Assembly: GCF_000263195.1 (NCBI RefSeq)
Contig: NC_018748.1
Location: forward strand, 2,232,001-2,296,000
DNA length: 64,000 nucleotides
Direction of reading: 5' to 3'
Source: Emticicia oligotrophica DSM 17448
Lineage (GTDB): Bacteria; Bacteroidota; Bacteroidia; Cytophagales; Spirosomataceae
The notes under the pieces are model-generated. The model was not told the DNA's origin. It was given only the letters and a program-made list of their open reading frames with translations, and searched no databases. Numbering within the stretch: position 1 is the stretch's first letter; each line of letters opens with the position of its first letter. Below, in pieces: positions 10,271-25,047 of this stretch. The position numbers and the translations under genes are program-made.

Positions 10271-10822
10271 ATGTATAGCGAACAAGATTTAATACAGGCT
10301 TGTATTCGCCAAGAACGACCAGCCCAACGGCAGCTTTACGAGCGTTTTGCTAGTAAGTTGTTCGCTACGGCTATGCGTTACATGAAAAATCGGAGTGATG
10401 CCGAAGATGTTTTACAAGATTCATTCATCAAAATCTTTCAAAAAATTGACACCTTCCGATTCGACTGCCCACTTGAAGCTTGGCTGCGAAAGATTGTAGT
10501 AAATACTGCTCTCAAACAATTACAAAGCCAGCCAAACTATATGGAGCATACTGATAGCCAATTGATTGCCGATGACCTAGAGCAAGATGAGTTTACACTC
10601 TCAGGTTTTGAATTTGAGCAACTCATGGGAATAGTACAGAGTTTACCCGATGGCTGTCGTACGATTTTCAACTTATATGCCATAGAGGGATATCAACATA
10701 ATGAAATAGCAGCAATGCTTGGGATTTCTGAAGGTACATCAAAATCTCAGTATTCAAGGGCAAAAATGCTATTACAAGGTAAATTGAAGGCAATTGGTAT
10801 TGTTCCGAAAACCATAAAATAA
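10271..10822 (+). CDS. ECF-family RNA polymerase sigma factor
   Basis: A 183-residue sigma-70 factor of the ECF type. Region 2 is seen in FATAMRYMKNRSDAEDVLQDSFIKIFQKIDTFR, ending in AWLRKIVVNTAL. Region 4 is seen in GIVQSLPDGCRTIFNLYAIEGYQHNEIAAMLGISEGTSKSQYSRAKMLL, a helix-turn-helix that reads the -35 region. The frame opens at a TTG at 10247; the ATG at 10271 (MYSEQDLIQACIRQ) matches the usual start. The next gene, 36 bp downstream, is a membrane protein with an acidic cytoplasmic N-terminus and is the likely anti-sigma partner. Region 3 is absent, as expected for ECF factors. Confidence 0.93.
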   Translation: MYSEQDLIQACIRQERPAQRQLYERFASKLFATAMRYMKNRSDAEDVLQDSFIKIFQKIDTFRFDCPLEAWLRKIVVNTALKQLQSQPNYMEHTDSQLIADDLEQDEFTLSGFEFEQLMGIVQSLPDGCRTIFNLYAIEGYQHNEIAAMLGISEGTSKSQYSRAKMLLQGKLKAIGIVPKTIK

Positions 10823-15421: not shown

Positions 15422-15430
15422 GAAGTTTTT

Positions 15431-15469
15431 GAAAAAGTGTCATTGTAAGATTAAAAGTGGCACTTTTTC
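15431..15469. terminator. Possible bidirectional terminator
   Basis: A 9-bp inverted repeat GAAAAAGTG/CACTTTTTC (15431-15439 with 15461-15469) has a long 21-base loop between the stops of two convergent genes. The large loop lowers confidence. Confidence 0.4.
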
Positions 15470-15479
15470 AATTTAATTG

Positions 15480-17645
15480 TCATAAAACGCCTTCAAACTG
15501 CTCCATCCAGAGACGGTTGTAAACTCCTTCTTGATAAAGCAAGCTTTCATGAGTGCCTTCTTGTACTAATTTACCGTTGGCAAGAACTAATATTTTATCC
15601 GCATTTTTGATGGTACTCAATCGGTGAGCAATGATAATGATTGTTTTATTCAAACTTCGTAATGATTGAATGGTTTGCTGAACGTATTTCTCCGAAATTG
15701 TATCAAGAGCAGAAGTGGCTTCGTCTAAAATCAGTATTTCTGGATTACGGTATAAAGCTCGTGCGATGGCCAAACGCTGGCGTTGTCCGCCCGAAAGATT
15801 TACCCCATTTTCGCCAATGTGGGTATTAAAGCCATTCGGTAGTTTTTCTACAAATTCACTAATTCCGAGTTGACTACAAATGAATAAAATACGTTGCATA
15901 TCTGGTTCAAAATCTCCGAGTGCGATGTTTTCAATGACCGATGCTCCAAATAAATCAATTTGTTGCGGTACTACACTCACCATATTTCGGAGGTTTTTAT
16001 TATGAATGTGCTTGATGTCATAATCGCCAATTAGAATATTTCCACTACTAAGTGGATATAAGTTTTGCAACAACGACATCAACGTAGATTTACCCGAACC
16101 GCTTTCGCCAATTACAGCCGTAATCTGTCCTTTTGGAAATACAATCGTCAGATTATCAAATACTTGCACTCTCGTTCCATAGCGAAACGATACATTCTTA
16201 AACAGAATGTCGCCTACCATTTCGGGCGTAAGTTCAACTTTGTTTTCGGTGGCTTCTCGCTCCAAGTCCATGATTTCAAATAATCGGTCGGCGGCAATGA
16301 GTGCCTCTTGGATAGTCCGATTTGAGCCAATCAAGCTCATAGCAGGGCTTGTAAAATAACCAATCAAAGAGTAAAAAGAAAGCAACTCGCCAGGGGTTAG
16401 TTGCTGGTCAATGACATAAGATGTACCAAGCCAGAGTAATAGAATGGTAAAAAGTCTGGAAATAAAATCGGTGATATTACCAATAAAAATGCTGGTTTTG
16501 CCTGATGTAAAAACGGTTTCGAGTAGCCTAACGAAATTAGTTTCGGTTTTGAGGTTGGCATAAGGCTCAATGCCAAAACGTTTGATTGTGGTAGCGGCAT
16601 TCAGAGATTCGACTAATTGAGCCTCTAATTCTGCTGAATTTTCCATCAATTTTCGCCCTTGTTTGCGGTTGATATAGTTACTGACAAAGTAAATAATGAC
16701 ATAGAACGGAATAATTGCCAATAGCATTGCCGCCAATTTCCAATCGTAAGTAAACATCAGACCAAACGAAAACAGCACGATAAAAATATTGACCGCTAAA
16801 CCAATAATCACATCATTGATAAAAACCCGAATCTTGACGGCATCATTTACCCTCGAAATGATTTCGCCCACTCGCATCGTATCAAAAAACTGTTGTGGCA
16901 GTTTTAGCAGATGTTTGTAATATCCCAAAATCAGTTGTGCATCTATCTGCTGGCCAGTTTTGAGGGCGAAAATACTTTTAACCGTACCGATGATGGTCTG
17001 CAAAACTAAAATAATAATCATGCCGATACTCAGCAAATTGAGCAGGTTTTTATTGCCTTCAATGATTACATTATCTGTGATTTTTTGGATATAAATGGAG
17101 GTTGAAAGCCCTAAAATGGTATAAACAGCAGCCCCAACCAAGGCTTGAAGCATAACGGTAGTGTGTGGACGTAACAATGTCCAGAATCGGCCAATGACCG
17201 ATATTTTTTCATTGCGAACCTCAAAATCTTCATTGGGTAATAGCAAAACCAAGACACCCGTCCATTGTTTCGTAAACTCTTCGATGAATTTTTTGTGCAT
17301 TTTCCCATCGCCAGGGTCCATGATAGTAATGTGGGTCTTTGAAACTTTGTAGATGACTACGTAGTGTAGAAGCCCACCGCCAGAGGGAGTAGTGATTTGA
17401 AGATGAGCAATAGCAGGTTTGGGTATTTTTTCGAGGCTTTCCAGTGTAGCTTTTACTCCTTTTGCTTGAAAACCGAGTTTTTGTGCGGCTTCAATTAGAC
17501 CGAGTACATTTGTGCCTTTTTTATCGGTACTTGCATATTGGCGTATGCGAGCAATGGGCAGCCGTAGGCGGAAATGAGCGGCTACCGAAGCCAAACAAGC
17601 CGCACCACAATCTCGTAAGTCGTGTTGTTTTATTTTGATAGACAT
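15480..17645 (-). CDS. Peptidase-containing ABC exporter (C39 protease, double-glycine peptide exporter)
   Basis: A 721-residue exporter in three parts. First is a C39 cysteine peptidase (QHDLRDCGAACLASVAAHF with Gln7 and Cys13, His94 in LLHYVVIYKV, Asp110 in IMDPGDG). Then come six transmembrane helices (about 150-430), then an ATPase with Walker A VIGESGSGKST and signature LSGGQRQRLAIARA before ILILDEATSALD. Such proteins cut leader peptides after Gly-Gly and export the core. The frame reaches 17705, but ATG 17645 puts the protease at the start as in homologues. A 26-bp repeat lies 72 bp upstream; identical copies precede the peptide gene and the HlyD gene, tying the three together. All catalytic residues are intact. 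Confidence 0.95.
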   Translation of the reverse strand: MSIKIKQHDLRDCGAACLASVAAHFRLRLPIARIRQYASTDKKGTNVLGLIEAAQKLGFQAKGVKATLESLEKIPKPAIAHLQITTPSGGGLLHYVVIYKVSKTHITIMDPGDGKMHKKFIEEFTKQWTGVLVLLLPNEDFEVRNEKISVIGRFWTLLRPHTTVMLQALVGAAVYTILGLSTSIYIQKITDNVIIEGNKNLLNLLSIGMIIILVLQTIIGTVKSIFALKTGQQIDAQLILGYYKHLLKLPQQFFDTMRVGEIISRVNDAVKIRVFINDVIIGLAVNIFIVLFSFGLMFTYDWKLAAMLLAIIPFYVIIYFVSNYINRKQGRKLMENSAELEAQLVESLNAATTIKRFGIEPYANLKTETNFVRLLETVFTSGKTSIFIGNITDFISRLFTILLLWLGTSYVIDQQLTPGELLSFYSLIGYFTSPAMSLIGSNRTIQEALIAADRLFEIMDLEREATENKVELTPEMVGDILFKNVSFRYGTRVQVFDNLTIVFPKGQITAVIGESGSGKSTLMSLLQNLYPLSSGNILIGDYDIKHIHNKNLRNMVSVVPQQIDLFGASVIENIALGDFEPDMQRILFICSQLGISEFVEKLPNGFNTHIGENGVNLSGGQRQRLAIARALYRNPEILILDEATSALDTISEKYVQQTIQSLRSLNKTIIIIAHRLSTIKNADKILVLANGKLVQEGTHESLLYQEGVYNRLWMEQFEGVL

Positions 17646-17717
17646 AAATCTAAACAGATACTTTTTTGGCAAGATACTGCAAGAAAGTATCCAAAAAGTA
17701 AGCAAATAATGCCTATT

Positions 17718-17743
17718 TTATGACTGTGAGGAATAATTTATGA
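17718..17743 (-). promoter_or_regulatory. 26-bp repeat, copy 1, upstream of the C39 exporter gene
   Basis: Perfectly identical to copies at 21134-21159 and 22810-22835. On the coding (minus) strand it begins TCATAAATT and ends CAGTCATAA, so the hexamer TCATAA occurs at both ends with a 20-bp period. It ends 72 bp before the exporter ATG. Flanking bases are not conserved between copies, which marks the 26 bp as the selected unit. It is probably a regulator-binding site. Confidence 0.75.
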
Positions 17744-17751
17744 GTGAAGTG

Positions 17752-18615
17752 TTAATCCGCAAGTTTATCAAAAAATGATTTGAAACTATTCCATTGGTAT
17801 TTTTTGTAACAAATTCCTAAAAAAATAACAGAGCCTAAAATCATACTAAACGACAAAAATGTAGTATCATAGTCCTTTATGTGATATATTGTACTGGTTT
17901 GTAGAGCAGATGAGGTATAACCTATGAAAATTGCCGAATAAAGGTTATTGATGATATGAACCCCGATTGCCAGTTCTGTACCATCATCCATAACAGTCAT
18001 TATTCCAGCCACCAAACCCATCAACATGTAATTTAATATAAATACATACCCAAATGCTTTGAGTTCGGGATTCCCCAAGTGTAATAAACCAAATAATACT
18101 GATGTAATTAACACGGCCAGCCACGGACGTTTGGTAGCCCACGCAATGCCTTGTAAAAAATACCCTCTCATCAATAGTTCTTCACCTGCTGATTGAAATG
18201 GAATCAAGACTAATGAAATAATTAGATACTGAAAAAAAGTTGATTTATCAAACGAAAATTGGTAAGATGACGGATTTTCGAACCAACTAACCAATTCAAA
18301 CAAGAGCGTAATACTACCAAAACACCCCATTGCCCAAAAGATGCGATTCCATCTGATTTTCGTTGCATTGATGAGCGAATACCCAGAACGTCGATGTACC
18401 CATTTAAGTACCAAAAATGTACTAAAAACCAACATAGCACTTGGCAATAGTAATTGTAGATAACTTTGATAGGTATTTGGTTTAGGTTTTGATAAGATTA
18501 TGAATGCTGGTACACTAAATAAAGCCGCCAAAATAACCACATATATTGGTACAAGAATGTAATTATACCATTTATTTGAGCCTTTGGGAGTCGAAAAGAA
18601 AGTTTTTGTAAGCAT
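17752..18615 (-). CDS. CPBP-family intramembrane glutamic endopeptidase (Abi-like)
   Basis: A 287-residue polytopic membrane protein with about seven or eight hydrophobic helices. Motif 1 is QSAGEELLMRGYFLQG (Glu145, Glu146, Arg150), motif 2 is FGLLHLGNPE (His179), and motif 3 is IGVHIINNLYSAIF (His220, Asn224). These are the CPBP/Rce1-type active-site motifs, all present. Proteins of this family often lie in bacteriocin loci, where they act in immunity or maturation. Here it sits between the outer-membrane protein gene and the exporter gene, so a self-protection role is plausible but inferred. Unlike the exporter and peptide genes, it has no 26-bp repeat upstream. Confidence 0.88.
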   Translation of the reverse strand: MLTKTFFSTPKGSNKWYNYILVPIYVVILAALFSVPAFIILSKPKPNTYQSYLQLLLPSAMLVFSTFLVLKWVHRRSGYSLINATKIRWNRIFWAMGCFGSITLLFELVSWFENPSSYQFSFDKSTFFQYLIISLVLIPFQSAGEELLMRGYFLQGIAWATKRPWLAVLITSVLFGLLHLGNPELKAFGYVFILNYMLMGLVAGIMTVMDDGTELAIGVHIINNLYSAIFIGYTSSALQTSTIYHIKDYDTTFLSFSMILGSVIFLGICYKKYQWNSFKSFFDKLAD

Positions 18616-18678
18616 AGGTTGAGTATGATTTTTAGTGTTTGTTATTTAGAAAAGGCGTAAAACGGCTTGTTTTCTTCT

Positions 18679-18725
18679 GCCGTTCTAAGAACGGCTAACA
18701 CAACGGCTGATTTTTAAATCAGCCG
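18679..18725. repeat. Two adjacent hairpins in the gap before the CPBP gene
   Basis: Inverted repeats GCCGTTC/GAACGGC (18679-18685 with 18689-18695, 3-base loop) and CGGCTGATTT/AAATCAGCCG (18704-18713 with 18716-18725, 2-base loop) stand side by side. ACGGCT recurs around them. They could end the transcript of the upstream outer-membrane protein gene or be a small palindromic repeat; there is no clear T tract. Confidence 0.5.
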
Positions 18726-18766
18726 AACTTATGAAAGACTTCGCCTAACTGGGAATAGTTTATGAA

Positions 18767-20692
18767 TTAAAACCCAATTTTTAAACCAAATAAGATTCCT
18801 ATCGGTCTAACCCCATTATATAAATTATTAGGATTAAAGATAATTTCGTTAGAAAAGTTATTAGTATTAGCATTTTTATGAGACAAAAAGCCCATCTTTG
18901 ATTTAAAAAACAACTTTTCTTCTGAATATATTTCTTTAAAATATTGCATCTCAATAAAATATTTATACCTTTTTTTTCTGTATTCTAAACCAAAGCCTAA
19001 TAGGCTACTTAAATTGTTTTCTCCAATATAAACGTTTGATTTATTCCCTAAATTAGTATTTCCGATAGTGAGTGCCCCAAGAGTGCTGATTGAACCTAAA
19101 TAATACCCAGTTCTTTGTGAAGAAATTCCAATAGATACACTAAAAAACAAAGGATTGCCTATTTTTTTCAGTAGAAAGAGGTAATTATATTCAAGATTTA
19201 AAGAGTTGAAGTAATTTTCTTTTAATAAATTTTGCCTACTATTAATACTAATGCTTGATTTTCTATTCAATTCAAAGCCAAGATATGTAGTCATAACATT
19301 AAGTATGAAAGGATTCTTTAGGGTATTATGCAGATTATTAAAATTCTGAGTTTTATATGACAGCATGAACTCCCTATCAAAAATGGGTTCATATCTGATT
19401 ATATTAAAAGCGTAACCTATGCTAAACTTTTGTGCAACTTTTCTAATATTATTTAATTTGGTCTTATAAGAATCAGAATCTTTTTTTAGCACAATATTTT
19501 GTGGAATATTTATTTTATTTGCTTCATCAATTTTGTAAAATGGTTTTATTTGGTTTTTTAATAGAGAATCTGTTTCAATAGTAGTAGAATTTTCCCAAAA
19601 ATTTTCGTCATAATTATTGTTTATTTCTGCAAATACAGTCTTTCTATCTAATCTGGCCTCAAAAGGAATAGGAGTTAAATTATCATTACAACTAAAGTTT
19701 GTTCTTAAAAACTCCAATGTTTGCGTTGTTTCTTTATGTGTTTTACTATTGTAATTCCTTCCTTTCATTGAAGTATATTTGGGTAAATACAATCCATTTT
19801 CGTTTTCATATATTATTTGATAATTGCGTGAAAGAAATTTAATAGGTAAAAATGGATTTGGTATTGTTATGTTATTGTTGTTGAACTCAATTCTAATATA
19901 GGCGTATGTATGCTTATCTATCCATATCTTGCCACTGAATCTATCAAATTTATTGTTTGACCTGAAAGAAATTACGTAAACAGAATCTTTAAAAGCATTA
20001 TATGAAGAAAATGATTCTAAATTGTATAAATACTTGTGTTTGAAAGAAGATGGATTCAAAAAAGAGTTTCTATTTTTAACGGGGTCATTCCAATTGGCAA
20101 TAAAAATTCCATTGGCGTATCTTGAATTATCAATACTGTCACGATTTGGAAAATTAGAAATACGTGCTTTAATAACTTCTATTTGGGCATCTTCTTTTGA
20201 TTTTTGATAACCGCTATGTTGAATTTTTATATTTGCCTCACCAAAGTACAGGAATCTATTATCATTCAATTTCTGAGTTTCTCTATAAAACCCGATTAAT
20301 TCTGTTGGTTTTTGAGGATAATTAAATGATATTTTTGAATATGCCTTATTTAACAACTCCTTCAACGAACTGTCAGGCATCACAATAATCTCAGTTAAAA
20401 GCTGTTCATCTAATTGTAAATAAATTGCTTCTTTTTGAATTAGTGCTACTTTTTGAATCGAAGATTTATAACCAATACAACTAAACTTAATTTCGCCAAT
20501 TGCGTTAGTAACGTAAATATTAAATTCCCCATTTTGATTTGATAAAGTGCCGTTTTTAGTTCCAACTTCAGTAATACTTGCAAATGCAATTGGTTGTTTG
20601 GTCAAACTGTCCAAAATAGTTCCATGAATTAATTGCTTTTGTGCATATAAATTTGAAAATATTAAGGAGAAAAACAGTATTAAATTTTTCAT
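18767..20692 (-). CDS. Outer-membrane protein with carboxypeptidase-like regulatory domain
   Basis: A 641-residue exported protein (signal MKNLILFFSLIFSNLYAQ). Residues 20-100 form a carboxypeptidase-regulatory-like beta-sandwich (IHGTILDSLTKQPIAFASITEVGTKNGTLSNQNGEFNIYV ... CIGYKS), the domain that precedes many Bacteroidota TonB-dependent receptors. Here no plug domain follows. A middle region (ELIGFYRETQKLNDNRFLYFGEA) and a C-terminal strand-rich part ending GILFGLKIGF suggest a barrel. It is codirectional with the peptide gene, but a strong terminator separates them. It may be a surface receptor or an outer-membrane part of the locus, or an unrelated neighbour; no TolC-like features were seen. 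Confidence 0.7.
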   Translation of the reverse strand: MKNLILFFSLIFSNLYAQKQLIHGTILDSLTKQPIAFASITEVGTKNGTLSNQNGEFNIYVTNAIGEIKFSCIGYKSSIQKVALIQKEAIYLQLDEQLLTEIIVMPDSSLKELLNKAYSKISFNYPQKPTELIGFYRETQKLNDNRFLYFGEANIKIQHSGYQKSKEDAQIEVIKARISNFPNRDSIDNSRYANGIFIANWNDPVKNRNSFLNPSSFKHKYLYNLESFSSYNAFKDSVYVISFRSNNKFDRFSGKIWIDKHTYAYIRIEFNNNNITIPNPFLPIKFLSRNYQIIYENENGLYLPKYTSMKGRNYNSKTHKETTQTLEFLRTNFSCNDNLTPIPFEARLDRKTVFAEINNNYDENFWENSTTIETDSLLKNQIKPFYKIDEANKINIPQNIVLKKDSDSYKTKLNNIRKVAQKFSIGYAFNIIRYEPIFDREFMLSYKTQNFNNLHNTLKNPFILNVMTTYLGFELNRKSSISINSRQNLLKENYFNSLNLEYNYLFLLKKIGNPLFFSVSIGISSQRTGYYLGSISTLGALTIGNTNLGNKSNVYIGENNLSSLLGFGLEYRKKRYKYFIEMQYFKEIYSEEKLFFKSKMGFLSHKNANTNNFSNEIIFNPNNLYNGVRPIGILFGLKIGF

Positions 20693-20724
20693 AGAATAGA
20701 AATAATATGTTTGGAGTAAAATGC

Positions 20725-20754
20725 AAAAAAGGGTTATTTTATTAAAATAACCCT
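20725..20754 (-). terminator. Strong terminator after the double-glycine peptide gene
   Basis: Perfect 10-bp stem (20731-20740 with 20744-20753, extended by the 20730-20754 pair) with a 3-base loop. On the minus strand it is followed by a run of six T. It lies 45 bp after the peptide stop, so the peptide makes its own short transcript. Confidence 0.88.
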
Positions 20755-20798
20755 AAATTCATTATGGGAATTCTAAAATTTTAGTTACTAAGTAAAAT

Positions 20799-21023
20799 TT
20801 ATAAAATCCCTGGTCCAGTTGGACTTGGACCACCACCATTACCACCAACATCTCCTGAAAAAGTAACTATTGCTCCCCATACCATTAAACATATTGCAGC
20901 TCCAGCTACTGTATAGCCAAGTACCCTTACTACATTATCCCAAAAATCGCCCCCATCAATTCCAATCATTTCAGTGTCACTTAATTCAGCTACACCATAA
21001 TTTTCTAACGCCAACATTTGCAT
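20799..21023 (-). CDS. Double-glycine-leader peptide, bacteriocin-like precursor
   Basis: A 74-residue peptide. Residues 1-25 form a leader (LENYGVAELSDTEMIGIDGG) ending in Gly-Gly, with the spaced hydrophobic and acidic residues that C39 peptidases recognise. Cleavage would free a 49-residue core starting DFWDNVV. The core has a hydrophobic helix (VLGYTVAGAAICLMVWGAIVTF) and a Gly/Pro-rich tail (GDVGGNGGGPSPTGPGIL), with one Cys and no Ser/Thr/Cys-rich lanthipeptide pattern. This resembles unmodified class II bacteriocins. A 26-bp repeat and a perfect TAnnTTTG element lie upstream, a strong terminator downstream. The toxic or signalling role is inferred. Confidence 0.88.
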   Translation of the reverse strand: MQMLALENYGVAELSDTEMIGIDGGDFWDNVVRVLGYTVAGAAICLMVWGAIVTFSGDVGGNGGGPSPTGPGIL

Positions 21024-21113
21024 AATTTTTAAATTTTAAAAGTGTAAGATTTAATACTCCAAACCTCTGCAGCGGATTGTTGTTTCAAAAGTCTAATTTA
21101 AACTTTGGATAGT

Positions 21114-21121
21114 CAAATTTA
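21114..21121 (-). promoter_or_regulatory. -7 promoter element for the peptide gene
   Basis: On the minus strand TAAATTTG matches the Bacteroidota -7 consensus TAnnTTTG. It begins 12 bases after the end of the 26-bp repeat, so a protein on the repeat would sit just upstream of and over the -33 region. The expected transcription start leaves an untranslated leader of about 80 bases. Confidence 0.55.
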
Positions 21122-21133
21122 GAAAGTGCTAAA

Positions 21134-21159
21134 TTATGACTGTGAGGAATAATTTATGA
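21134..21159 (-). promoter_or_regulatory. 26-bp repeat, copy 2, between the peptide gene and the XRE regulator gene
   Basis: Identical to copies 1 and 3. It lies 110 bp before the peptide ATG in the same orientation relative to the downstream gene as the other copies. It also lies upstream of the divergent regulator gene, 102 bp from its ATG. Confidence 0.75.
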
Positions 21160-21217
21160 ATGTAGCCGAATAATAAGTTTTTTATGGGGCTTTAAATATC
21201 TTTTTCTGATTTTTCCT

Positions 21218-21236
21218 TTATTTGCAATACAAATAA
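21218..21236 (+). promoter_or_regulatory. Palindrome upstream of the XRE regulator, possible operator
   Basis: TTATTTG-CAATA-CAAATAA is a perfect 7-bp inverted repeat ending 25 bp before the regulator ATG. Placement suits self-regulation, but no direct evidence is available. Confidence 0.35.
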
Positions 21237-21261
21237 CTTTATCTATAAAACTTTTGCTGTA

Positions 21262-21600
21262 ATGATGAATAATATAAATACTAAACTCCGTACACTTAGA
21301 GAACTTCACAATTACAAACAAGATTACGTTGCTACCGTATTGGGTATCACACAATCAGGCTACGCCAAAATAGAAAATGGAGATATTGGCAACGTCAGCC
21401 TCAAATACCTTCAAAAACTTGCCAAACTTTACGAACTAAACTTAGAACAACTCTTAGACTGGAATGGTAAAATAAATATAGATACTATTAATGGTGTTGG
21501 GGTCAATCAAGACACAATGCACTTACACATACCAGCTGATGAGCGTATTATAGAATTAGAGGAGAAAGTAGAAAAGCTATTGAAAATGGTAAGCAAATAA
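21262..21600 (+). CDS. XRE-family helix-turn-helix regulator
   Basis: A 112-residue protein. Residues 2-62 form a Cro/C1-type HTH (KLRTLRELHNYKQDYVATVLGITQSGYAKIENGDIGNVSLKYLQKLAKLYELNLEQLL). The C-terminal third is a short linker and a probable coiled coil (ADERIIELEEKVEKLLKMVSK) suited to dimerisation. It lies inside the peptide-export locus, divergent from the peptide gene, and its stop codon abuts the stop of the convergent HlyD gene with no gap. It is the only regulator in the locus and thus the first candidate to bind the repeats or the local palindrome. ATG 21262 or the adjacent ATG 21265 could be used. Confidence 0.9.
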   Translation: MMNNINTKLRTLRELHNYKQDYVATVLGITQSGYAKIENGDIGNVSLKYLQKLAKLYELNLEQLLDWNGKINIDTINGVGVNQDTMHLHIPADERIIELEEKVEKLLKMVSK

Positions 21601-22767
21601 TTATTTACGCTCAATTTTTGGGTTTAGCCAGTCGTCGGTTTTGTCATACAAAAGTTGGTAAAGGCTACGTTTGGTTACTACAAATCTTGCTCTGAAAGTT
21701 AGGCCTTTTTTCAGAGGTGCAGTATAGCCGTTTTTTAATTGGAGGATTTTCTTATCCAATTGGCATTTTACTTTGAAAATTGGTTTTTCGTTTAGCACCA
21801 CAAAATCACGGGCAATATCAGTGATTTTTCCTTGCACCAAGCCCCATTCATTATAATTAAACGCATCAATCTGAAAACTAACGGGCATGTTTTTTCTTAA
21901 AAGTCCGATGTCGTTTGGGCTAACGTAGCATTCTGCAATAAGGCTAGAATCGGGTGAAATAATACCCAGCGTTTCGCCTATTTGCACATAACTACCCTCA
22001 TACTTACCCACAATTTGCTGAATATTTCCACCAATTGGGGCTTTTATTTCATAATAAGTTTTTTGTTGAGTAAGTTGCTTGGCTTCGCTTTGAAGCTGTT
22101 TCAAATCAAAACGATGTTTGTTTAGTTCAGCTTGCCATTGGCTCAACTGCCGCTGAAAAATTGATTCAAATTCAGCCACCAAGCGGTTCATTTCGTATTC
22201 TTTGGCGTTGAGTTCTCGGCGAGCAATTACCTTTTCTTTATATAAATATTGGTCAGCATCTAATTCTTTCTTGATTTTCTTTTGGTGAAAGATATTTTCT
22301 TGTAATTGGCTACGAAAAGTATTGAGTTGTTGGGTGTAGATGGGGGTTTGGGTAGAATGATTTCCAAAAACATTGTTTTTCCCGATTTGGGTTAGCACTA
22401 CTAAATCTTGGATAAAATCGTTTTTTTCCTGTTTTTGAAAACTATTGGTATTGAGTTTTGTATCAATATCTTCGGTAGCTATCACAAAAAGTGTAGTATT
22501 TTGTGCAATATTTTGATTTTCTGATACATTTACCGCTTTCACAGTTCCCGAAATCAACGATTTTATCTCGGTTTTTTCTGAAACTGTCCTGATGATTCCG
22601 TTGCTTTGCACCGAAATATCAATAAAAACAAGAGGCAAACTCACTAAAATTCCAAAAATAGACAGCAGAAGAAGTATATAAATCAACTGACTTCTAACCG
22701 CCACTTTGGGCAAATAAGCTTCTACGGTACTTTGAATAATATCGGATGGAAATAGTTGTTTTTGCAT
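21601..22767 (-). CDS. HlyD-family membrane fusion protein (exporter adaptor)
   Basis: A 388-residue adaptor. A short cytoplasmic N-terminus is followed by one transmembrane helix (LIYILLLLSIFGILVSLPLVF). The first lipoyl half is NGIIRTVSEKTEIKSLISGTVKAVNVSENQNIAQNT, then come long alpha-helical hairpins (about 120-240) and the second lipoyl half YYEIKAPIGGNIQQIVGKYEGSYVQIGETLGIISPD. Such adaptors join a C39 ABC exporter to an outer-membrane channel. No TolC-type channel is encoded in the window. The frame opens at TTG 22782; ATG 22767 is the better start. The third 26-bp repeat lies 42 bp upstream of this ATG. Confidence 0.93.
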   Translation of the reverse strand: MQKQLFPSDIIQSTVEAYLPKVAVRSQLIYILLLLSIFGILVSLPLVFIDISVQSNGIIRTVSEKTEIKSLISGTVKAVNVSENQNIAQNTTLFVIATEDIDTKLNTNSFQKQEKNDFIQDLVVLTQIGKNNVFGNHSTQTPIYTQQLNTFRSQLQENIFHQKKIKKELDADQYLYKEKVIARRELNAKEYEMNRLVAEFESIFQRQLSQWQAELNKHRFDLKQLQSEAKQLTQQKTYYEIKAPIGGNIQQIVGKYEGSYVQIGETLGIISPDSSLIAECYVSPNDIGLLRKNMPVSFQIDAFNYNEWGLVQGKITDIARDFVVLNEKPIFKVKCQLDKKILQLKNGYTAPLKKGLTFRARFVVTKRSLYQLLYDKTDDWLNPKIERK

Positions 22768-22809
22768 GGTACAAAAATGCAAAAAAATGCAACACTTAAA
22801 TATTAAAGT

Positions 22810-22835
22810 TTATGACTGTGAGGAATAATTTATGA
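22810..22835 (-). promoter_or_regulatory. 26-bp repeat, copy 3, upstream of the HlyD gene
   Basis: Identical to copies 1 and 2 and in the same orientation relative to its gene. Only 42 bp separate it from the ATG, so the promoter must overlap or closely follow the repeat. Confidence 0.75.
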
Positions 22836-22908: not shown

Positions 22909-25047
22909 TCAGAAGAATTTAGCTCTATTATCTTTGATATTTGCGTTATCACGAATTGCTTGATTGGCCATGTAAGATACTCCGTATCCACCTGTGCGTT
23001 GCAATACTTGGTTTTTGTATTGTGTATAATCAGCAATTTCTGGAGCTTTTGTGATTTTAGTAGTTTCTACTACAAAGACGCCATTTTCACCAGCAAATGG
23101 TTTTGAACGTTTGCCAGCTTGCAAGCTGAAGATTTTACCGATAGCTACTGGGTCAATACCTGGTGAAGTAAGCATACCAGAAGCTAAGTTAATATCATTT
23201 GCAGCTTCAACCAATGCACCTGCTCCATATTTTTGTGCAGCTTGCTCTAATGAGCCTGATACATTTCCAAGTTTACTGATGATTTGCTGAGACTTGATTT
23301 CGTTACGAACTTTAGCAGTAAGAGCATCTTTAAAGTCTTCTACTTTAGGGCTATCTTTTTCAGTTTTTGACGTTACAGCAGCGATGATAAAGTTATCACC
23401 AACTTCAAATACACGGTCAGAAACTTTACCAACTTTCGTATCATCATTGAATGCCCACAAAACAACTTCACGTGCATTTTGAATAGTATTGAATGTAGAT
23501 GCTTCTGGGAATACTTTATCAGCTTTTAATACAACTAACTTACCATCTTTCTTAATTGCTGCTTCGAATTCTTCTACTGAGCTACAACTTGCACGAAGAG
23601 TTTCTGCTTTTTGGTAAATAGCATTTCTTGTACTTTCACTTGCTGTCAATTCACGACTGATAGTAGCGATTTTGTATTTCAAATTGTTCTTTGCTTCTGT
23701 TACTTTAATGATGTGATAACCGAAGTCTGTTTCAACAATATTAGGAACTAAACCAGCACCACTCATGCCAAATACTGCATTCTCAAATGGCTTAACCATT
23801 GTGCCATTATTCTTGAAAGTACCTAAATCTCCACCTTGTTGAGCTGAACCATCTTGGCTGTTTGCACGAGCTAAAGTAGCAAAGTCGGCACCTTGTTGTA
23901 ATTGGCTTAAGATATCTTGTGCCTTTGTACGGGCTGCTGCTTTAACTGAATCTGGAGCTGTTTTGTCAGCACGAATTAAGATATGGCTTGCACGTGCAGT
24001 GTAAAGAGAATCTGTCGTAGTACCTTCATATTTGTAAATAGAGTAGGTGCTTCCATCTTTAAATGGCCCAATAACTGCTCCCTGAATAGCTGTTGAAAGA
24101 GCTTCTTTCAATACTGGAGTAAGTTCGTTTGAACTACGCTCATAAGGCACGCGTGAATCAGAATTTGAAGCAGCATAAGCTTTAGCATCTTTAGCTGTAG
24201 CTAAGCCTTTCGCAAAACTTTTAATGTCTTCATACAAAGCAGAGCTATCTTCTTTTGTAGGCATTACTTGATACACTACATAATCAAATGAGCGACTATC
24301 ATATCCTTTGAATTCTTCTTTGTGCTTACTCAAATAGTCTGACAACTGGCTATCAGTAACTTTGATAGTAGTATCAATGATGCTTGCATACGGAACATAC
24401 AAGTAGCGAGCATCTGCTTTTGTTACTTGAGCATCATATTCTTTCTTAGCTTCAGCAGTTGTTACAAATGATGCAGAAGAAAGTAAAGCATTATATTTTT
24501 CCAACAAACGTTGTTGAATTGCTTGCTCTTTGATTTGGTCCCAAGCCGCTTTTTGTTGTGCTGGAAGTTGATTCGAAGCAGCAGCATTGATAAACTCAAT
24601 ATGACGATTACGGTCGTATTGACCAGTTTGTGGGTCTGTGAACTGTTGCTTAATGAGAGGGCTTAAGTTTTTAGTACCTTGAACCATTTCACGAAGTTCA
24701 TCTGGCGTAACTTTCAAACCTAGTTTTTCAAACTCAGCTTTGTAAGTAATGTCAAAAATCATTTGCTCCCACACTTGGCTGCGTAATTGCTGAATTTCTT
24801 GCTCTTGCAAAGTTCTTCCTGCTTGTTGTTCGTAATTTGCACGTGCAACATCTAATTTTGCTTGGAAGGCCTGATAATCAATACTGGTGCCAGCAATTTC
24901 ACCGATTTTATTATCATTACTACTAAATAAGCCACTTTTACCATTACCACCGAATAAATCTCCTCCGACAATGAATAAAATGAGTGCAACTGCAATGACT
25001 ACGACTGCAACACCTGAACGCTCACGAATTTTGTTAATTAAAGCCAT
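22909..25047 (-). CDS. PpiD/SurA-type periplasmic peptidyl-prolyl isomerase
   Basis: A 712-residue membrane-anchored foldase. A short cytoplasmic N-terminus (MALINKIRERSG) precedes one transmembrane helix (VAVVVIAVALILFIVGGDLF). A SurA-like N-terminal chaperone region follows (IGEIAGTSIDYQAFQAKLDVARANYEQQAGRTLQEQEIQQLRSQVWEQMI). The parvulin domain at about 345-445 starts ARASHILIRADK and includes GGDLGTFKNNGTMVKPFENAVF and TDFGYHIIKVTE. It helps fold outer-membrane and secreted proteins at the inner-membrane surface. It is transcribed alone, ended by a strong terminator, and is a core gene rather than part of the peptide locus. Confidence 0.93.
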   Translation of the reverse strand: MALINKIRERSGVAVVVIAVALILFIVGGDLFGGNGKSGLFSSNDNKIGEIAGTSIDYQAFQAKLDVARANYEQQAGRTLQEQEIQQLRSQVWEQMIFDITYKAEFEKLGLKVTPDELREMVQGTKNLSPLIKQQFTDPQTGQYDRNRHIEFINAAASNQLPAQQKAAWDQIKEQAIQQRLLEKYNALLSSASFVTTAEAKKEYDAQVTKADARYLYVPYASIIDTTIKVTDSQLSDYLSKHKEEFKGYDSRSFDYVVYQVMPTKEDSSALYEDIKSFAKGLATAKDAKAYAASNSDSRVPYERSSNELTPVLKEALSTAIQGAVIGPFKDGSTYSIYKYEGTTTDSLYTARASHILIRADKTAPDSVKAAARTKAQDILSQLQQGADFATLARANSQDGSAQQGGDLGTFKNNGTMVKPFENAVFGMSGAGLVPNIVETDFGYHIIKVTEAKNNLKYKIATISRELTASESTRNAIYQKAETLRASCSSVEEFEAAIKKDGKLVVLKADKVFPEASTFNTIQNAREVVLWAFNDDTKVGKVSDRVFEVGDNFIIAAVTSKTEKDSPKVEDFKDALTAKVRNEIKSQQIISKLGNVSGSLEQAAQKYGAGALVEAANDINLASGMLTSPGIDPVAIGKIFSLQAGKRSKPFAGENGVFVVETTKITKAPEIADYTQYKNQVLQRTGGYGVSYMANQAIRDNANIKDNRAKFF

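Follow-up and report, generated by a model that had tools for sequence, protein, structure and literature searches.

A short sequence of 26 base pairs (bp), here called element S, is confined to one island of genes for double-glycine (GG) leader peptides and their export in the genus Emticicia, where it stands at the head of the island's units and forms its recombination seam. The DNA analysed, referred to as the window, is a 64,000-nucleotide stretch of the genome of Emticicia oligotrophica DSM 17448 (G000; 5,220,361 bases), in which three copies of S (TCATAAATTATTCCTCACAGTCATAA on the gene strand) precede the genes for a HlyD-family adaptor, a GG-leader peptide and a C39 peptidase/ABC exporter. 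The reading towards which we lean, with moderate rather than firm confidence, is that S is an upstream promoter element shared by the units of a modular GG-peptide island, probably one for bacteriocins, and doubles as its seam; a regulator, activation and the loop-out of units, all acting through S, are what we infer beyond this. If the reading is right, one short sequence would both co-regulate and delimit the parts of a probable peptide weapon, and whole units could be lost or gained without breaking their control. S would then offer a sequence handle for tracing what regulates this secretion of GG peptides, and a case in which the idea that an operator can double as a recombination seam could be tested.

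Confinement and anatomy of element S

The three copies in the window are identical and share one orientation, as the first-pass annotation of this DNA had reported, and 100 dinucleotide shuffles gave no match to S at up to 3 mismatches. Their distances to the genes behind them, counted from the end of S to the ATG, span the 42-110 bp given there:

22810..22835, minus strand: S copy 1, 42 bp before HlyD, at the joint between the flank that holds the PPIC gene (22909-25047) and the HlyD unit
21134..21159, minus strand: S copy 2, lying 110 bp before the GG-peptide gene, with the divergent XRE gene on its other side
17718..17743, minus strand: S copy 3, 72 bp upstream of the ATG of the C39 exporter

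Across the whole of G000, S occurs at up to 3 mismatches only at these three sites in one locus, and its reversed control pattern has no match. A search of 222 genomes of the family at the same tolerance found S in three (G000 with three copies, G002 with six and G009 with three) and not in the other 219; the genus set gave 3 of 11 genomes. A stricter exact pattern, run over wider genome contigs, returned five stretches: one of G002 (L015), two of G009 (L016 and L017), one of Emticicia sp. EMPMRC01 (EMP; L019), in which a rescan found five copies, and one of Ruminiclostridium (L020), judged a chance match since it is a single site with 4 mismatches among unrelated genes. The total is 17 copies in four genomes of the genus. 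A 17-bp core of S, searched with up to 1 mismatch in the 11 genus genomes, had all of its 12 matches inside these islands. That S is a dispersed or selfish repeat without function, as its repetition in one locus of several genomes might suggest, is hardly credible: the 11 genus genomes hold no copy outside the islands at the tolerances used, which largely refutes it, and the genome-wide scatter that the first-pass annotation had named as the mark of such a repeat was not seen. A phage origin was also considered, with 10 viral contigs carrying the 15-bp core plus ATAA, but each has only one such site, which departs from the 26-mer at 4-7 positions, and these too were judged to be chance.

Within each island all copies of S point the same way, and the left 15 bp are invariant in 17 of 17 copies across unit types, while the right end reads TCATAA in 12, GAATAA in four and TCATAT in one, positions 18 and 20-22 being the most variable. 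The first-pass annotation had described TCATAA hexamers at both ends, 20 bp apart; the spacing holds from start to start (a 6-bp repeat with a 14-bp gap), but the right hexamer is intact only in those 12. The hexamer pair does not define a wider regulon, because TCATAA-N14-TCATAA matches only one further place in G000 (G000:C5:667038) beside the three S sites, and the reversed-pattern control has 2 forward and 2 reverse matches.

Thirteen of the 17 copies head forward units, namely seven peptide, four HlyD (one truncated to 185 amino acids, aa) and two C39 units, at distances of 109-148, 42 and 69-72 bp, respectively. In one G009 peptide open reading frame (ORF; copy L016:12729) the start lies further into the leader than in related ones. 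The other four copies lie behind the 3' end of a reversed toxin-antitoxin (TA) pair: HicAB in G002 and G009, and a PIN-domain VapC-like gene with a small partner in G002 and EMP. HicA falls below the Pfam cut-off, and the VapC partner has only a weak DUF2683 match, 'VapB' being our label. The S-headed units may thus form one regulon under a shared operator, as proposed in the first-pass annotation, in so far as all 13 forward units encode a peptide, HlyD or C39.

Exchange at S and the structure of the island

The island of G000 and that of G002 are flanked by a GH65 gene on one side and a PPIC/SurA-like gene on the other. These genes are found on contigs C43 and C29 of G009, and because the ends of the two contigs share 41 identical bases, the G009 island presumably occupies the same slot. 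The slot is empty in G003, G004, G008 and G010, where the GH65 and PPIC genes adjoin with 194-218 bp between them and no S is found at up to 5 mismatches; G001, G005, G006 and G007 showed no GH65 neighbour in the stretches read.

When 60 bp on each side of every S copy were compared, flanks of different unit types stayed under the similarity threshold of 0.72 (shuffled 99th percentile 0.67, maximum 0.72), in agreement with the earlier statement that the flanking DNA is not conserved. Right flanks fall into the classes peptide, HlyD, C39, PIN-gene end and HicB end, and left flanks into PPIC terminator, XRE, TA promoter, end of a 139-aa ORF, end of the CPBP gene and others. The terminator and the TA promoter are each found joined to both HlyD and peptide—terminator-HlyD in the window, terminator-peptide in G002 and G009, TA-HlyD in G002, TA-peptide in G009 and EMP—and, all four combinations ('four gametes') being present, exchange at S took place. 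Among five sequences, 66 homology-block ends were counted, and 26 of them fall no more than 12 bp from S (the actual distances being 0-8 bp) in both partners, S with its margins making up 1.1-3.1% of each sequence compared; the count is of inner ends that are not independent, leaves out high-scoring segment pairs under 100 bp and ends at sequence ends, and includes one pair (G009a/G009b) that consists of two contigs of one genome. A further 16 of the 66 ends belong to peptide units and are found 116-180 bp downstream of S, in the region of the start codon and leader; the heads of these units stay alike and their cargo changes beyond that point. S is the recombination seam of the island, a role missed by the first-pass annotation, whose interpretation otherwise stands in part.

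A reading of S as an operator and nothing more, in which ordinary homologous recombination reassorts the units and breaks fall at S for no other reason than that the units have no other intergenic stretch in common, draws on the 13 of 13 forward-unit copies that head secretion genes and on passages of PMC4860687, where recombination is proposed for the blp peptide locus of pneumococci. The 26 block ends and the four flank combinations, however, make crossovers within S likely for some joints, and the TA modules carry S at their 3' end, so that this reading appears unlikely.

Wherever units are present they follow one order—terminator, peptide to 139-aa ORF, TA, HlyD-XRE, peptide to CPBP, C39—with two exceptions. 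One is a second TA-HlyD segment in G002; the other is a unit of a peptide and a 167/170-aa ORF, 70.9% identical over 660 bp, which precedes the TA module in G009 but follows it in EMP, either as paralogues or through movement. Many differences between islands may have arisen when units bounded by two directly repeated S copies were lost. From S to S, over 620 bp, the HicAB modules of G002 and G009 share 98.2% identity, more than the PPIC-side (92.5%) and GH65-side (93.2%) blocks do, which suggests recent exchange; HlyD of the window and G002 is 90.0% identical, against 82.4-84.4% for the PPIC-side and GH65-side blocks.

S could instead be the attachment site of a cassette system, with a trans-acting recombinase moving S-bounded modules (peptide units, HicAB, VapBC-like) and the position upstream of genes a by-product. 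Such a system would accommodate the two unrelated TA modules, each bounded by two copies of S, as well as the high HicAB identity, the block ends at S, the single orientation of copies and the differing place of the 167/170-aa unit. Yet no recombinase was found among the island genes scanned and, with regard to integron gene cassettes and their IntI integrase and attC sites, no integrase among the island proteins scanned (whole genomes were not searched for IntI), S has no inverted arms like those of the pdif sites in passages of PMC13141974, and the unit order is otherwise largely kept. In addition, the 11 genus genomes hold no close copy of either TA module outside the islands, with one 67% match to half of HicAB (G002:C1:230233), and the two island stretches searched have no plasmid relatives. 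We therefore consider the cassette reading improbable; still less weight is due to a combination of the two ideas, in which a cassette system not described before would excise and insert peptide, adaptor, exporter and TA modules as S-to-S units through a trans-acting recombinase, with S as its attachment site and at the same time as a promoter element co-regulating newly captured forward modules.

The S copies behind the PIN module share some 18 further bases with the C39 head, giving 47-bp matches including S at 89-94% (L015:11432-11476, L019:996-1040 and 17699-17743 of the window) and hinting that the PIN TA module replaced, or landed in, a former C39 head.

Promoter context and candidate regulators

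The trinucleotide TTG serves as the -33 element of promoters of the -33/-7 type. The -7 box has the consensus TAnnTTTG in passages of PMC9723704. TTTG starts 8-17 bp past S in 11 of the 13 forward units (peptide 16, HlyD 9, C39 11) as against one of the four TA copies, and letter shuffles place it in that range in 3-16% per unit; the box was chosen after looking, and related units are not independent. The arrangement TTG-N17-22-TAnnTTTG with one mismatch in the -7 box is found in 11 of the 13 forward units, and six of the seven peptide heads have TTG, 20 bp and then GACTTTTG. In the window, the peptide unit has the following boxes by consensus match only:

21114..21117, minus strand: putative -33 box TTTG of the peptide unit, 16 bp beyond S
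21086..21093, minus strand: putative -7 box GACTTTTG of the peptide unit, 1 mismatch to TAnnTTTG

A rigid activator spacing from S to the -7 box was rejected, the spacing not being fixed; a position upstream of TTTG, seen after the fact, fits better. The forward units start with S, mostly 9-16 bp before TTTG, so that S would lie where an activator would touch RNA polymerase, and a proposed regulator encoded in the genome would switch on all of them via the invariant left 15 bp. Because the copies stand in direct orientation at unit heads, recombination between them would insert or delete entire S-to-S units, with a single intact S left in front of the following one, whereby the control element would become the seam of the island.

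The TA genes do not seem to need S, because for three of the four S copies that have a TA module to their left the TA promoter is an exact TTG-20-TATATTTG that does not overlap the element. HicAB and the PIN/VapC-like module, although unrelated, carry this promoter in a near-identical 47-bp segment directly beside S (exact in three of four), as if TA genes had been swapped behind a constant promoter:

L015:9447-9493, 10750-10796; L017:694-744; L019:1653-1703: 47-bp TA promoter segment

The idea of S as a control element is supported by analogy with a locus in another family. Of 390 genomes of the order, 55 have HlyD relatives (E<=1e-50), and 18 loci out of these 55 genomes were read, with identities of 44-55% for HlyD and 65-71% for C39. 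Exporter and adaptor are related, but in 17 of the 18 loci, in contrast to the island, HlyD and C39 lie within about 150 bp or overlap. The only split locus, L109, has a 17-bp inverted repeat with 6-bp arms, TTCCGAAATTCTCGGAA, unrelated to S, which heads HlyD and two peptides (10730, 12619 and 15756; one copy with 1 mismatch) and is followed by a TAnnTTTG box (TAACTTTG or TACCTTTG). Thirteen loci were screened for an exact word common to the 200-bp stretches that precede the exporter unit and peptides, with 200 shuffles per locus, leaving out L099, L102, L105, L108 and L113 (no usable GG peptide) and some of the listed peptides; only L109 beat all its shuffles, as does the window, while the other 12 have no shared word beyond shuffles. 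Split units thus carry a common upstream element in two cases, of different sequence.

Several observations weigh against S as a promoter element of this kind. The four TA-associated copies have no forward gene, two of them being followed only by a 54-aa ORF, 201 bp off and antisense to the PIN gene. TTTG is missing in two of the 13 forward units, the HlyD unit of the window and one G002 peptide unit, and exact TTG-N17-22-TAnnTTTG is found in none of the 13, whereas it does occur inside hicB past two TA-associated copies. The resemblance to the direct-repeat sites of response regulators seen in the first-pass annotation is weakened by the decay of the right hexamer (12 of 17) beside the constant left 15 bp (17 of 17). 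That annotation had also proposed comparing the unit with its flanks in relatives; beyond the invariant left part, S in the orthologous C39 pair of the window and EMP is identical at 23 of 26 positions, no better than the left flank at 88%. G009 has kept S-headed GG peptides and a TA module, but its best C39 reaches 32% identity and, with 4 of 16 candidates scored, HlyD gave no match at E<=1e-50, so that its peptides may be orphans or served by another exporter. EMP is covered by an 8-kb stretch, with the chromosomal slot outside it, and the C39 gene of L109 stands without the shared repeat, downstream of a peptide gene in the same direction.

Finally, no regulator besides XRE was found among the island proteins scanned, in line with the earlier remark that the locus encodes no response regulator. 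In the window and in EMP (L019) an S copy has the divergent XRE gene as its neighbour, and XRE might bind S as a repressor. The gene is matched in G000, but it is broken in G002 (2 stops; six copies of S), weak in G005 (41%) and without a match at E<=1e-12 in G009, where three copies of S are nonetheless intact, and S has no long inverted repeat by eye; repression by XRE is accordingly very improbable.

Known systems and remaining features of the island

S resembles the control elements of class II GG-leader bacteriocin regulons (LytTR; blp) in that several bacteriocin promoters have a common upstream element; LytTR direct repeats are 9 bp long. In passages of PMC6193735 these repeats lie just upstream of the -35 region with a spacing of 11-13 bp. 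S would likewise sit just upstream of the -33 region, but it is not a repeat pair of that length or spacing, and the island differs further in its Gram-negative host and in S itself being the joint; the island genes scanned include no pheromone, no kinase and no LytTR regulator. The recombination proposed in PMC4860687 is a second likeness to blp. In Acinetobacter, according to passages of PMC13141974, TA and other genes are bounded by short pdif sites with inverted 11-bp XerC/XerD arms around a 6-bp spacer, and modules are rearranged, much as HicAB and VapBC-like modules are bounded by S and gained and lost as units. S and its flanks, compared by eye with the pdif table of that source, lack such arms; S also keeps one orientation per island, belongs to a chromosomal peptide-secretion island and shows no sign of Xer action. 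Bacteroidetocins of the Bacteroidetes, as described in passages of PMC6671954, combine GG-leader peptides with a peptidase-ABC exporter, as does the window, but have by definition at least 2 cysteines, whereas the window peptide has one. The window also differs in its HlyD adaptor and separate units, and no thiol oxidoreductase was found among the eight window proteins scanned. Among the papers listed, titles and abstract starts yielded no report of S, and titles none for Emticicia with bacteriocin.

The genes of the island in the window and the repeat at its edge are:

21601..22767, minus strand: HlyD-family periplasmic adaptor, 388 aa from ATG (Pfam HlyD_3, HlyD_D23)
21262..21600, plus strand: XRE-type helix-turn-helix protein, reversed, within the HlyD unit (Pfam HTH_3)
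20799..21023, minus strand: GG-leader peptide precursor, 74 aa (GG leader read from the sequence)
18767..20692, minus strand: 641-aa carboxypeptidase-regulatory-like domain protein of the peptide unit (Pfam CarbopepD_reg_2)
17752..18615, minus strand: CPBP (CAAX/Rce1-like) intramembrane protease (Pfam Rce1-like)
15480..17645, minus strand: C39 peptidase/ABC exporter, 721 aa (Pfam Peptidase_C39, ABC_membrane, ABC_tran)
15429..15471, no strand: inverted repeat at the island's GH65 edge; by eye, the stretch recurs in G002 and G009 but not in the four empty slots

The three gene types named in the first-pass annotation are confirmed by Pfam for the exporter and for the HlyD adaptor, which type I secretion of GG peptides uses along with a TolC channel; for the peptide, no family match was obtained in Pfam (E 0.001) or in NCBIfam (E 0.1). 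The exporter, with its C39 peptidase, ABC membrane and ATPase domains, scores 513.2 bits against NCBIfam TIGR01193, just under the curated cut-off of 523.85, and HlyD scores 110.8 bits against type_I_hlyD, under the cut-off of 208.65. The short peptides of the island are probably antibacterial. Three other genes lie between the S copies (CPBP, the 641-aa protein and XRE) and not two, as had been counted. A 35% relative of the 641-aa protein lies near C39-HlyD in another genus (L101:11873-13882), for which reason this protein may be part of the peptide system, and the CPBP protease, to judge from passages of PMC9298176, is a possible immunity or processing protein.

A C39 exporter on contig C53 of G002 (L049:5877-8030), 74% identical, at the contig end and in a different context, was considered as the missing exporter of the G002 island and rejected, its DNA being 71% identical to that of the window as against 82-90% for HlyD and flanking-gene DNA; it apparently represents a separate locus, and a small XRE-like ORF (by eye) lies beside it. 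A second island repeat with CCGTTCTnAGAACGG / CCGTTTTTAAAACGG-type palindromes is found at 18670-18753 of the window and at L015 5618 and 5679, L016 13783, L017 1849 and L019 5560, and the homology of the truncated HlyD of G002 ends where a segment with such palindromes begins.

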